The notes below the pieces were generated by a model that worked only from the letters and a program-made list of their open reading frames with translations, ran no database searches and had not been told where the DNA came from. Source: Physocladia obscura (Eukaryota > Chytridiomycota > Chytridiomycetes > Chytridiales > Chytriomycetaceae). Taken from it: DNA of 10,933 nucleotides. Position numbers and translations under genes: made by a program. Of this stretch, positions 3,462-10,857 are shown piece after piece; within the stretch, counting starts at the first letter, position 1; every line of letters starts with the position of its first letter. The stretch spans positions 1 through 10,933 of the forward strand of contig JADGJH010001273.1 in NCBI GenBank assembly GCA_027596945.1, in the 5' to 3' direction.

Positions 3462-6293
3462 ATGGCCGGAGAAATCAAACAAAAAACAGAAATAAACAAT
3501 TCAATCCAACATACCAAATCGATGATGGCAGATCACACCGTGCCAGGCGGAGCCTCCGATGAATCTCCATCTGAGGTTCCCGACAAAGAACTACGCTTCT
3601 CCCGCTTCGATCCAGTCGATCAGCGCTTACAGATTATCAATGATGACAAGAACTTTTCGTGAGGATCCATCGAGCAAATTAAACCATATAGTACTAACCA
3701 ATCGCCTTCACATATTCTTCCAGTCCTATTGTTTCGGAATATATGAAAAAACACTGGCATCTCGCAAACAGCGGCTTTAATTACAATATTGTCGCCGTGT
3801 TTGGCTCCCAATCAACTGGAAAATCGACATTGCTTAACAGGTTATTCGGCACGAATTTTGACGTCATGAATGAAGCATCTGGCCGCCAGCAAACGACAAA
3901 AGGTTTGTGTTTCGTTTTTTTCTTTCATCGACATGTAACAAAGCATTGATATCCATCTGAAATCAACTTCAAGGCATTTGGGTATCGAAATCCGATGAAT
4001 CCAACACCTTAGTCCTAGATGTAGAGGGAACTGATGGCGGTGAACGCTTCGAAGACCAAGACTTTGAGCGTAAATCCGCCCTCTTTTCCCTTGCAATTTC
4101 GGAAGTGGTTATTGTAAACATGTACGAAAATAACGTTGGTCTCTACAACGGCGCGAACCTCGGACTCCTCAAAACCGTTCTCGATGTAAACCTTCAACTT
4201 TTCCAACAGGCCGGAAATCCAAAAACGTGTCTTCATTTCGTCATTAGAGATTTCACAAACCAAACCCCACTGGAACGCTTGCAAGCCACCGTAACCACAT
4301 ATCTCGAAAAAATCTGGTCTACGCTGAATAAACCAGCTGGAAAAGAAGATTGTTCCCTTTACGACTTTTTTGTGCTTAATTTCTCTGGCCTACCACATAA
4401 GATTTTTGCACGAGAGGCCTTCGAGTCTGCTGTCGCGAAACTGCGTACACGGTTTTCCGACCCGACGGCACTAGATTATGTGTTTTTGCCTGTTCTACAT
4501 AAGCGCGTGCCTGCTGATGGTTTTAGCTCGTTTGCGCATGATATCTGGGAACGCATCTCTGCCAGTAAGGAACTCGACTTACCGACACAAACTCAACTTC
4601 TTGCTGAGCATCGATGTGAGGAGATTGCAAAGGAGATTTTCGACGAAGAATTTTTGGTTGAGAGTATTGCTGCTTTGAAGCGCGGTGTGGAGGTTGGCCG
4701 CGTTGTCGAGGAATTTGGCGAAGTTGTTAATAACGTTGTTGACGAATGCATTAGTATGTTACGATCTGGTCTCATGATTGTTACATTCTCACTTTTATTT
4801 TTTAAAAAAAGTGAAATTTGACGAAAACGGATCCCGTTACAACAGCATCGTGTATAAACGGAAACGCGCAGAATTTTACAAACGCATGGCTACATACCTT
4901 CTCCCTGTCTATAATGCGCAACTTACAAACATTACAAAAACCCGTATTGCGGCTTTTTCTGCAAGTTTATCAGCGGGCCTCGCCGCTGACGTCGATGCCG
5001 GTGTGCCAATAAATTTTGCAAAGCATACCACAGCCGTACGCCGCGAAGCTGAAAACTCATTCCTTGCTGGTGCTGCCAGCAGTCGTTTGAGTCAAGTTGC
5101 GGATGATGAGTGGAGCGCTGCTGGTCAGTACGGCCAGCTTGTGGAAGAGATTGAGAGAATTTCTGCAGAATTGCGCAGTGGTGCGGTGGATAAGATGTTG
5201 AAGGCTGTGGAAGGATTGGCGGTTGGAAATATGAATGATAATGTGTTGGGACGGATGAACTCTGGGGCCAGTGTTGGAATGTGGGTTTCCATTTTGGAAT
5301 CTTTCAAAGAAGCACTGGACTTTGAAGAACTTCAAATTCAAAAGAGAGGTCAAGGTGAGCATTTAATTTTTTTTATTTTTATTTTTATATTAATGATTAT
5401 GTATTTATGATAGGGTTTGAGGCATCTGCGGAGGAATTGGAACTGTGGAAATCAACTCTAAGATGGCAAACTTGGACAAGTCTGTTGGAGACTTTGAAGA
5501 AGGAAACGGCAGATGATGCAATTTTGGCTCGCCTCAAAGTAATAGTAACAGTGTTTAATTTTGGTTCTTAATTTCTAACTATTATTATATTTTCTATCAG
5601 GGAATTTTTGACAACAAATTCAGATATGATGAGCAAGGGATTCCAAGGTTATGGAATTTAGATGACCCTATCGACTCGTACTTTGCTTCTGCCACTGAGG
5701 ATGCGGAAAAAGCGCTGAGCATTTTCGCAAAGCTGGATGTCCCATTAAAGCTTATTGGAGACAATATAATCGATGACCAGGTTAAAAATATTCTATAACT
5801 CGTAATATCATATTAATATTTTTAACAACAGCGATTTGATCCAGCATGTGTCACCATTATTCCAGCAAATCGGTTGCAAAATATTCGCGAAAGATTCAAA
5901 AGAGATGCGCAAACTCTATTTGTTGAAGCTAAACGATCAATGGTTGTAACAACAGCCAAAATTCCCCCTTGGTTTATTGCTCTCACACTCGTACTTGGAT
6001 GGAACGAATTTATGATGGTTCTCTTCAATCCAGTATATTTCGCTCTTCTGGCCATCTTTCTTGGAATTGGGTACTTATCATGGCAGATGGGCATGGTTGG
6101 ACCCGCTTATCAGGTGGCAAAAGTTACTGTCAGAGAAGTTACAAACCAGGCAATTGAAAAGCTGGAGAATAACGGAGTTGAAGTTCCCGAGTTCATGCGA
6201 AGTTCCCAAGCTTCTGAAAGAAAAAGGAAGAGTACGGTGGTGAAACGAGTGGAAAGTGTCAATGAGAATATTGAAATGACCAAGATTGACTGA
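3462..6293 (+). CDS. SEY1: Sey1/RHD3-type dynamin-like GTPase of ER membrane fusion
   Basis: Sey1 is the fungal counterpart of atlastin: an ER membrane GTPase that tethers and fuses ER tubules. Seven exons join in frame to 821 codons plus stop: 3462-3658, 3724-3902, 3974-4753, 4812-5354, 5414-5538, 5601-5780 and 5832-6293, with introns of 51-71 nt. Intron 1 has a perfect TACTAAC at 3692-3698; intron 5 has CTAAC at 5575-5579. Seen motifs: P-loop GSQSTGKST at residues 93-101, switch QQTTKG ending at 126, G3 DVEGTDG at 141-147, and RD (G4) at about 217-218. A long helical middle domain follows. Two hydrophobic segments at about 714-733 and 736-756 form the membrane hairpin typical of the family, with a charged cytosolic tail to 821. 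Yeast Sey1 is 776 residues, so length is normal. The start is supported by an in-frame stop at 3444 and a good ATGG context; a later ATG pair at 3522 is possible. Donors GTTTGT (3903) and GTTAAA (5781) are weak, but phase and homology support them. Confidence 0.96.
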
Positions 6294-6533
6294 GTTTGTG
6301 GAAAAGTCATTTGTTTGTTTTATTTTTTTCAGTCGTTGGATGTGGAAAATCTTCCAGTACAACAAAAATAGCCGAATTATTTGCAATATTGTTAGAAATC
6401 AAGAAAATTAAAACACAGAAAACCCAAAAAGTAACTGAAAACCAAGTCAAAAAGGTGAACAATCAATCAAATGCACCAAGCAGCCATAAACCTAAGAGAA
6501 AACAAAAACAAAAAAACGAACACAAATGAGTGA
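6294..6533. other. SEY1 3' flank, no gene seen
   Basis: This holds the SEY1 3' untranslated region and A-rich sequence. An open + frame runs through 6296-6529, but it is Lys/Gln/Asn-rich from A-runs and has no recognisable domain. No canonical AATAAA is present just after the stop; the nearest A-rich stretches at 6400-6430 may serve. Confidence 0.5.
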
Positions 6534-6815
6534 ATTTAATGTCATAATAGTCAATAATGAATTTGGTGTTGTATTTATACCCACATTACCACCTGTCATA
6601 AAAAGAGATCCTATTGTATTACTTTTAAATGTAACTAATAGTCCACCACTTGAAATAATTTAATCAACAATGTTTGTAGTGGTTAAATTTGTACTATAAA
6701 ATGCCACTGAACTTACATTAGTTGTAGCATATAAATTTGCTGTTGTAATTACAGTACCAACGATATTTGTAGTTGTTAAATTTGTACTATATAAACTTGC
6801 AGTAGCTAAACCATA
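6534..6815 (-). pseudogene. Fragment of viral/phage-fibre-like repeat protein
   Basis: On the - strand a continuous frame reads a Thr/Asn-rich repeat (LYSTNLTTTNIV occurs, and a near copy follows 31 residues later), then, after a TAA at 6660-6662, the same frame goes on to SSGGLLVTFKSNTIGSLF and TGGNVGINTTPNSLLTI. From knowledge of the families, Asn/Thr repeats leading into a GGNVGIGTxSP-type motif are typical of fibre or spike proteins of phages and large DNA viruses, often just before an S74-type chaperone domain. No search was run, and cellular adhesin-like proteins with the same motif exist. The piece lacks a start, is broken by the stop, and fades into unrelated sequence at about 6534, some 240 bases from SEY1. 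It is best read as an integrated, decayed fragment. Confidence 0.55.
6665..6790 (-). repeat. 93-nt in-frame tandem repeat in the fibre-like fragment
   Basis: CAAC(A/G)AT.TTTGTAGT begins at 6665 and again at 6758, an offset of 93 bases, which is 31 codons. Both copies encode YSTNLTTTNIV on the - strand. The exact codon-multiple spacing supports a coding origin. Confidence 0.7.
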
Positions 6816-7037
6816 AATGAACTCAAAGTGATAGAGATAAGATGGCAGTATGCTGCTATGAGAAGATATTACTGCCAATGTAGTTGTGAAGTTTATGATG
6901 GAGGTGGTCATGCCAATAATAACCACAATGATCACTGAGGTTATCAATCAAGTGGAAAAAAAACCGGAGGAGTAAGAAGCCAAACTAATGGAGAAGTTTT
7001 CAGCCATGAATATGCAGCTCAAAAGTCTATCAAATAG
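6810..7037 (+). pseudogene. Small Cys-rich coding relic, unrecognised
   Basis: The frame is open from 6810 to a TAG at 7035-7037 apart from one TGA at 6936-6938. It reads KVIEIRWQYAAMRRYYCQCS, then CEVYDGGGH and an Asn/His-rich stretch, and after the stop a Gly/Ser/Lys-rich part ending EYAAQKSIK. The CxCxC cluster with later His residues could be a metal-binding motif of a mobile-element protein, but this is a guess. There is no clear start or promoter, and overlapping frames also look partly open. It may be unrelated to the fibre-like fragment on the other strand. Confidence 0.25.
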
Positions 7038-7570
7038 GGCACTGAGCAGGAATACTGATGCGTCAGTCGCTCTGTTTGCGTGGGTTTAGGATTAGCAAAA
7101 ATCAGCTGCTCGATACGGTATCTAAATTTTCTCAGACTATCTTCAGCCAAGTTCATATCTGATAGCCTGAGTCAATAGATTTTGGCGCTAGTTTCACATC
7201 TTTTTCTTTCATCCTAATATCTTCTGCTAACCACCCGTTTTTTTATTTTTCAGGATCTTATGTTAAAACTGAGTTTTTGCTGTTTGGGTTTGGTGTATTT
7301 TATCTTCAGTTTGAGATTTGTGTTTGGTCTGATAATATATTCACTTGATAACGAGGGATACCCTTTTAATAACGCGCCATATTTATAACCTAGATTTTGC
7401 GTTTAATTCGCGGTCCTTCAAACTTGGAATACATCTTGAGAATCATAATCAATCAATAGGGATAATAAAATTCCATTAAAAAGCATCATGATTATATCAG
7501 AGATTAAGCTTTCGAGGTTCTTGTGCTGAATTCTATAAAACATGAAAATTATCAAACATCTGTCGGATTT
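7038..7570. other. AT-rich intergenic sequence with normal CpG
   Basis: No open frame of note on either strand. CpG dinucleotides still occur (for example around 7060-7080, 7108-7120, 7370-7412), unlike the block that follows. It contains the first copy of the diverged repeat at 7412. Confidence 0.5.
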
Positions 7571-7856
7571 TATCAAATACAATGCTTTTTAATTTGGCAG
7601 AGATTAACCTATTAGAGCAAAAATGTTCTTATTCCATCCAATTTTCTGAGCAGAATTATTGAAAGAATTCTAAATTAGAATCTAACTAGAATCTAAATTG
7701 CTAAAATTTAAAAAAATAATAGTGAAAATATAAGAGATAATATAACCAATATTTTATTGGAGATTCTGTGCCAACTTTACATCAACTTTAAACAATAAAA
7801 ATAGACCACAAATGGTCCTTACAAACTTGGAATAATCCTGAAAATGATTATGGATA
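7412..7856 (+). repeat. Two diverged direct copies of a short repeat
   Basis: GGTCCTT(A)CAAACTTGGAATA occurs at 7412 and at 7814, followed by alignable but diverged sequence (ATCTTGAGAATCATAATC against ATCCTGAAAATGATTATG). The match covers about 40 bases in the same orientation, about 400 bases apart. These are probably pieces of two old copies of one repeat family. Confidence 0.55.
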
Positions 7857-8149
7857 TGTTTCTGATCACTTTTGATTGAATTTAGTAGAGACTGTCCAAA
7901 AAAAAACACAGTATTATATGCTCTCTTACATATGCTACTAACATATTTTTATACACCTATCTTTATTTCAAGAACAGTGCATACTGTCTGGGATGGCATC
8001 ATCTTGTTTCACATATAATCACAAAGAATAAAAAATTGAGTTGTGTTATCTGAGAAAATATACAAGAATGAATAATTTAATTGCAACATGTTTAAAAATA
8101 CTCAATTCTTTCTGGCTCAATCAAATTTAATTCATTAAATTTTGGCACG
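7571..8149. other. CpG-poor non-coding flank of the decayed element
   Basis: AT-rich, with no useful open frame and only one or two CpG. It lies just beyond the apparent C-terminus of the decayed minus-strand coding sequence and may be its 3' untranslated part, or separate repeat debris. Confidence 0.4.
7888..7912. repeat. Terminal-repeat-like end (Tc1/mariner style), unpaired
   Basis: GAGACTGTCC followed by nine A and CACAGT, preceded by TA, resembles ends of Tc1/mariner-type elements. I found no inverted partner in the window, so this is only a resemblance. Confidence 0.2.
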
Positions 8150-8725: not shown

Positions 8726-8899
8726 CAATTTGAAATTTGCATAATTTTTCAAAAGTATACAAATCAACAGCATCCCATAAGTAGAAATAATTTTGAAACT
8801 GTTTGGCATAGGATCATTTTTAAATATCCAGTCAATAAATTTTGCACCAAACATTTGAAAAAGATTTGAGTATTGCCTTTGAGTTTGTCTCGAAGCACA

Positions 8900-9290
8900 A
8901 ATCAGAATCACATGGATAATTTCTGTTGATTTTACATAGACCAATAGTGCATACTCCAAATTTCCAGATGCCAAAAAGTGAAATACCTGGCATTTGTATT
9001 GCTTTGCAAAGTTTGATGAGTCTACTTCAATCTCAATAAAATGTCCTAGTCCATTCACAGAATCACAAAAAGCTTCTTGATTGAAGAATTCAAAATTGTT
9101 TTTGTTTTGATTTCCAAACCAACAAGATATATTGTATTATCAGTCTGTGACTTCTGCTGAAATATTAGAATCCTATCTGGAGAGAATATAAGGCATTGAG
9201 TAGATCTGCTTTGTAGGAGACCATAACTTTTGGTAGCAAGCACTTTCCACTTAGAATGTGTTTCAACAAACTCTGCCAGATGACTCACTA
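8900..9290 (-). other. YqaJ/lambda-exonuclease-like PD-(D/E)XK nuclease core within the pseudogene
   Basis: Seen in order: KSYGLLQSRSTQCLIFSPDR with Asp at 9175-9177, VGLEIKTKT with Glu at 9112-9114 and Lys at 9106-9108, a frame change in an A-run, then AKQYKCQVFHFLASG with Gln at 8987-8989, followed by EYALLVYV. This D...ExK...Q pattern, with Q-x-x-H before a strand predicted from ALLVYV, matches the core of YqaJ-type recombinases and lambda exonuclease as known for that superfamily. Such nucleases occur in phages, large DNA viruses and some eukaryotic mobile elements. The assignment is from motifs only. Confidence 0.5.
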
Positions 9291-9629
9291 CATTACCCTC
9301 ATTTTTGGTGCCAATTTTTGTGTCTTAATTTCCTTTGGTTTTATGAACCACAAATCAACAAGGATTTGCTCCATGCTGAATGGATCAGCATCAGTTTGAA
9401 GTTCAGAAGTGTTGACTTTGCCACTATGACTACTGTGACAACCGTTGCTTCCACCTCTGCCCTGTTTATCTTGGCCATGGCTTCTACTACTAGATAGGCT
9501 ATTATTAATGACTGCCACATTTTCAGAAATTGTTAATGCTGCCCCAATTTCTACCAAAAGTCTTTACTTTAGACTTGACATCCAGATCCATCTGTTCAGA
9601 TGGATTCTATTATTTCAAGTAGCAAAAGC

Positions 9630-9825: not shown

Positions 9826-10857
9826 AATAATGATCTGAAAATTCTTTTCAATCTCCTTGCAAAACATCCAGACTGGTACTTCAAACAACTTGTTTAAAAC
9901 ATCATCATATGCCTTATCCTTTTTGGCACCATTCATATTACCTGAATTTATTGCTGCGGCTATATTTTCTTTTTTTTGGCCAACAGAGCTAGCTTGATGC
10001 TTGTTTGGAGAATTTTCATGAGGAATAGACACCTGTTTTTGAGCAGTGGAGATTGATGGGACAAGGTTTGCCACCTTTCTGAATTTGACAGAGATGATCC
10101 AGTTGCATGTGATTTTTGATCTATCTCAGCAAACTGTGTAAATTTTGATTGCATCATCAAAGATATTGTTCTCTGTTCACTTTTCCATTTGGTTTACAAT
10201 GCTTCAGCAAGAAGATTGGTGTACCTAACTGCTTTCCAAACAATGTACCGATCTCATCCTATTACATTGATATAAATGCAGGTTACAGTATTATGTTGAT
10301 TTGCTGTGTGTAACAAAGGGTTTTAGAGATGATATAATTTTATTGATTTGTTTTGACTTTCAGAAAAGAAACCAACTGTTTTTATACATTTTCCAGTGTC
10401 TTGATGTCACTGTGGCTTGATTGATCACCTGGTATCTTAACTAAGTGGCAAATGCTCTATTTGTAACTTTTGGTGTTACCAGTGGTGTTTTTAATCAAGA
10501 TCCTGATAGATGGCACCAATTTTTCCATTTTTGTATGCCTATTCAAAGTTAGAGCATGTGGAAAAACTTGCCTATCAATCCATCACTTGTAAAACACACA
10601 ACATGTCACAAGTGCATACAATTAATACAGAGCCATTTCTAGGCTTCCAGTATCTCCTAAATAGTTCTATCTTTGCAGCCCATTGTGGCACATTGCACTG
10701 AGTACCACTACAGCAGTGTGAGCTGTTGTACCAATAGTGTCTTTGGCAAAAAGTACAGCTTTATTCATCCCTTTTATCATTACAATTTGTTATCTGTTGA
10801 TGTTCTGGTGACTCTGTGGAGAGAATTAATAGAATAAGACAAATAATACAAAGAAAC

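Follow-up and report, generated by a model that had tools for sequence, protein, structure and literature searches.

The window analysed here is the whole of contig C1105 (10,933 bases) of a Physocladia obscura assembly that comprises 21,758,710 bases in 1222 contigs. Two host genes, both on the plus strand and both apparently with introns, occupy its left part: a gene for a bifunctional lycopene cyclase/phytoene synthase (125-2432, limits approximate) and one for a SEY1/RHD3-like GTPase (3462-6293, start codon inferred). In Pfam scans, the open reading frame at 798-2432 matches SQS_PSY (E 7.1e-37), with Lycopene_cyc below the cut-off, and the SEY1 gene matches RHD3_GTPase (E 3e-76) and Sey1_3HB (E 2.4e-16 and 4.1e-27). 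The carotenoid gene has 16 relatives at E <= 1e-30, one of which is the window's own; the best of the others are from Rhizoclosmatium globosum (48%), Entophlyctis luteolus (47%) and Podochytrium (45%), all Chytridiales of the family Chytriomycetaceae. The right part of the window is marked by sequences that recur elsewhere in the genome, based on 40 of 211 candidates scored. The nearest of these is at 7665-7941 (C864, 73%), followed by 8727-8985 (C140, 95%), 9135-9574 (C910, 84%) and a dispersed host repeat of ~500 bases at 10290-10790, which has at least 40 matching pieces (75-89% identical) on at least 36 other contigs. The intervening 6816-7664 has no match elsewhere in the genome among the candidates scored, and scans of the window for tRNAs and Rfam families gave no match.

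Between the SEY1 gene and these repeats, on the minus strand at ~6541-6815, lies a fragment of ~270 bases that resembles part of a viral fibre gene. The SEY1 stop codon ends at 6293, ~240 bases to its left. Read on the minus strand, the translation of 6534-6815 passes from an Asn/Thr-rich stretch through a TAA stop to a stretch with SNTIGSLFMTGGNVGI. Piece 1 (6663-6815, in a frame open to 6947) is an Asn/Thr repeat with a 31-residue period, seen in the DNA as a 93-base period in which 6650-6701 and 6743-6794 are 79% identical. The in-frame TAA occupies 6660-6662. Piece 2 (6534-6659) sits in a 55-residue open frame and reads IISSGG...SNTIGSLFMTGGNVGINTTPNSLLTI, with homology fading at ~6541. 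The original prediction, made from the letters of the window, had described a minus-strand 31-residue Asn/Thr repeat, a TGGNVGI motif and a single in-frame stop, and all three are there. The motif pattern matches once in the window and in none of 200 dinucleotide-preserving shuffles.

Judged by sequence alignment, homology is firm over about 6541-6815, and its upstream edge beyond 6815 is uncertain because some alignments reach 6911-7076 through low-complexity sequence. About half of the fragment is compositionally biased (Thr/Asn-rich). Its GC content is 28%, compared with 42-43% for the host genes and 29-33% for the viral stretches, a low value that is not distinctive because the right flank is AT-rich too (33% GC). 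Pfam scans of both pieces returned no families at E <= 1, and no second copy was found in the assembly. A 12-base near-repeat (6462-6473 and 6943-6954) flanks the fragment; we do not claim it as a target-site duplication because equally good near-repeats occurred in 16 of 200 simulated flank pairs, which places it within chance. Beside the fragment, on the plus strand at 6817-7088, a frame reads ITEVINQVEKKPEE, a stop and then EAKLMEKFSAMNMQLKSLSNRALSRNTDASVALFAWV, and resembles a degraded part of a coiled coil or a retroelement.

Viral fibre-like relatives

A protein search, proposed with the original prediction as its check, returned relatives, most of which bear the S74 domain. With X at the stop, the fragment was compared with 5.8 billion proteins (997 candidates), and nine relatives were found at E <= 10, three of them below 1e-3 (7.6e-9, 1.3e-6 and 8.2e-5). 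Peptidase_S74 is present in six of the nine. Their sources are ena, jgi and lgn; three are named 'hypothetical protein' and the others are nameless. One of the nine, the fibre-like protein P0009, used as a query in its own right, matched 2107 proteins at E <= 1e-5 out of 7871 scored candidates. Counting the query itself, 120 of these were listed; S74 is present in 111 of them, and seven are on contigs of >100 kb. The names among those listed, which include 'hypothetical protein' and 'trimeric autotransporter adhesin' as well as a single UniRef entry from a viral metagenome, do not settle the taxon.

The fragment aligns to residues 176-274 of the relative P0002, with a score of 84.7 bits over both pieces. 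This homology, which spans the repeat and the TGGNVGI module, places it in the shaft of S74-type viral fibre-like proteins. What it shares with these proteins (P0002-P0010 and L030-L033, often S74-terminated and encoded on unnamed and giant-virus-like contigs) is a series of Thr/Asn-rich STNxTTTNIV repeats followed by SNTIG..TTGGNVGI modules. In the relatives, other sequence comes after the modules, often a C-terminal S74 chaperone domain, whereas the fragment consists of only ~90 shaft residues interrupted by a stop, and the C-terminal S74 domain (Peptidase_S74, PF13884) is absent from it. Having neither a continuous frame nor an S74 end, the fragment should make no working protein.

A degenerate DNA version of the motif pattern was found in four stretches on three IMG/VR contigs. 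We scanned ten chosen open reading frames of at least 150 aa on these contigs with Pfam (6 of 12 on L030, 3 of 7 on L032 and 1 of 2 on L031). Those on L030 encode D5_N/DUF5906, a protein kinase, a tail collar protein, a glycosyltransferase 41 with TPR, a nuclease and a histidine kinase; L032 has DHFR-thymidylate synthase, Hsp70 and one frame without a family, and L031 a Bro-N protein with T5orf172. Giant viruses commonly carry such a combination of genes. The three records may be fragments, and a capsid search found no domain in any of them; it is from the other genes that they take their giant-virus label. An IMG/VR protein search gave no relatives for piece 1 or for P0003. One IMG/VR relative of P0009 (L024) was set aside, its match being confined to the last 105 residues of P0009.

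The original prediction had called the motif typical of phage and giant-virus fibre proteins. In tblastn searches of 50,697 phage records, the open frame of piece 1 gave one match (E 0.2) and a 70-residue shaft segment none at E <= 1; the only PHROGs matches to piece 1 were at E 0.048 and 0.73. Whole P0002 matched 15 phage records at E <= 1 (best 1e-5). The ten of these that were listed are 26-36% identical to it, all from P0002 residue 256 or later, and are annotated as tail fibre, virion structural, chaperone of endosialidase or hypothetical proteins. Phage fibres are therefore only distantly related to P0002, and mostly in the part that follows the shaft. Given a single phage match at E 0.2, and P0002-phage similarity that starts at residue 256 or later, near the end of the part matching the fragment, we consider a phage origin less likely. 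A viral fibre-like origin is supported, with S74 in six of the nine relatives and large-virus-like genes on the contigs that bear the motif.

Search for viral genes elsewhere in the genome

No other viral genes were recognised among the window open reading frames scanned, and the extended stretch carrying multiple viral core genes that defines a giant endogenous viral element was not found at the fragment. Across the genome, Peptidase_S74 (PF13884) had no match at E <= 1, and its control matched in 2 of 14 genomes. The markers proposed for checking with the original prediction included capsid and an A32-like ATPase. Capsid_NCLDV (PF04451) and Pox_VLTF3 (PF04947) had no matches above cut-off in the genome, which are weak negatives because the controls were silent. 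Pox_A32 (PF04665) and Pox_D5 (PF03288) likewise had none above cut-off in the genome, with four sub-threshold matches and one, respectively.

The marker check did bring up one remnant. D5_N (PF08706) has a single match, on a different contig (G000:C394:8378-8563), at 26.9 bits against a cut-off of 22.4 and with a stop inside. The same piece was found again by Pfam (E 6.2e-6) and as a DNA primase family in PHROGs (1.5e-5), and it is 24% identical over 79 residues to the D5 protein of L030 (E 2e-6, in a single comparison). A nucleotide-binding-loop-like sequence, recognised by eye, occurs near it in another frame. The piece has no confirmed IMG/VR relative and none in the phage records at E <= 0.01, and its PDB matches are weak (best 0.064). 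This broken primase-helicase remnant may be another viral scar in this genome, weakly supported and not linked to the fragment. The region on C394 also corresponds to L036 1507-1818 and L037 8384-8695. C394 bears F-box and copia-type reverse transcriptase pieces as well, the latter (L038 2728-3078) matching RVT_2 at E 2.2e-17.

Origin of the fragment

We conclude, with a probability of roughly 0.7, that the fragment is a decayed, non-coding remnant of a virus attachment-fibre shaft gene, most likely giant-viral, integrated downstream of SEY1. Directly established are the homology and the stop, the failure to find a second copy, and the flanking of the fragment by host sequence on both sides in a single contig of 10.9 kb. 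SEY1 on the left and host repeats at least 850 bases to the right make it likely, as far as sequence can tell, that the fragment is integrated in host DNA. In this reading, DNA of a virus, most likely one of the giant viruses (Nucleocytoviricota), would have entered the chytrid nucleus and been joined into the chromosome downstream of SEY1, and the remainder would have been lost or never inserted.

So, was the donor a giant virus? Probably it was, and possibly it was a polinton-like virus; the fragment alone does not separate the two. A polinton-like virus or virophage is the alternative that survives best, although we give it a clearly smaller chance. Such viruses insert in protist genomes, often integrate and carry S74 fibre genes, and part of one account (PMC12220804) describes S74 genes as ubiquitous across polinton-like viruses of most eukaryotic groups. 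It also gains from the fact that the weak D5_N remnant is the only giant-virus core marker seen. Against it, the seven contigs of >100 kb among the 120 listed P0009 relatives exceed the 14-40 kb given for polinton-like elements in the same source (PMC12220804), and the scanned neighbours of the motif on L030 and L032 look giant-viral. The original idea of a scar left by large-DNA-virus integration thus holds for the viral origin and, given the flanks, for likely integration, and the choice between giant and polinton-like donors is one that the fragment itself leaves undecided.

An improbable source of the fragment is an assembly chimera or contamination, with reads of a virus present in the culture or in a bait organism having been assembled into a chytrid contig. 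The shortness of the contig (10,933 bases) and the division of the assembly into 1222 contigs would favour such an error. However, a host gene lies to the left of the fragment and host repeats to the right, its frame is broken, and no further copy or S74 gene was found in the assembly.

Similarity by chance was assessed with 127 proteins pooled from the fragment and P0009 searches, with low-complexity filters off. Scored apart, the two pieces reached 52.8 and 52.8 bits, and the best of 500 shuffles per piece reached 37.4 (piece 1) and 33.1 (piece 2). At the place of the fragment, 117 of the 127 proteins match with E <= 10 on the minus strand, 75 of them with E < 1e-5, compared with two plus-strand matches; elsewhere in the window there are 271 weaker matches, none above 28.9 bits. 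The real pieces scored 45.1 and 38.9 bits against the viral stretches, and reversed pieces up to 28.5. Part of the score is composition, since it is reversed piece 1 that still reaches 28.5 bits (against L032). The fibre family also matches 27 other genome loci (one inside another), at no more than 34.7 bits. Piece 2 is 76% identical to L033 over 17 residues and 63% over 27. That low-complexity host sequence came to resemble the fibre family by chance is therefore largely refuted and very improbable: the Thr/Asn-rich half of the fragment, the reversed piece and the other loci speak for it, but each piece exceeds its shuffle maximum, the two together score far higher still, and the agreement with L033 lies in piece 2.

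Comparison with viral insertions in other fungi

Genomic scars of this kind matter for the question of whether viruses infect, or once infected, early fungi. Fibres of large DNA viruses probably serve attachment to cells, and a gene for one probably has to do with recognising the host. A 2023 paper, 'Genomics discovery of giant fungal viruses', reportedly proposes candidate fungal giant viruses. Another source states that, as of 2023, there was no known double-stranded DNA virus of fungi (PMC10640383). We put forward only tentatively, as a reading we would not bet on, that giant viruses with fibres infected members of the Chytridiales and left scattered, decayed gene scraps in their genomes, the shaft fragment and the D5_N piece on C394 among them. 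The fragment is too small to decide the host question, and the virus may have been one of algal prey, or of some other organism that the chytrid came across. PMC5294986 raises this caution for two lower fungi, Gonapodya prolifera and Allomyces macrogynus, whose viral genes may stem from viruses of algal prey.

We found no report of the fragment in the open-licence literature on chytrids or Chytridiales and giant viruses. S74-type genes are described for both kinds of candidate donor: a cryptophyte giant virus has one at its terminal repeats (PMC10960955), and polinton-like viruses integrated in eukaryotic genomes carry S74 fibre genes (PMC12220804). Unlike the polinton-like insertions, the fragment has no recognised polinton gene next to it.

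Among the closest parallels are large-DNA-virus genes in the genomes of early-diverging fungi. Core genes of large DNA viruses occur in Gonapodya prolifera, Allomyces macrogynus and Rhizophagus irregularis (PMC5294986), and R. irregularis contains a 1.5-Mb endogenous large-DNA-virus region (PMC10640383). Those cases involve core genes, islands or a megabase region, whereas here there is one ~270-base scrap with no core markers next to it. Remnants of large viruses have thus been published before from early-diverging fungi, and the fragment downstream of SEY1 is a small, dead relic of a known kind.
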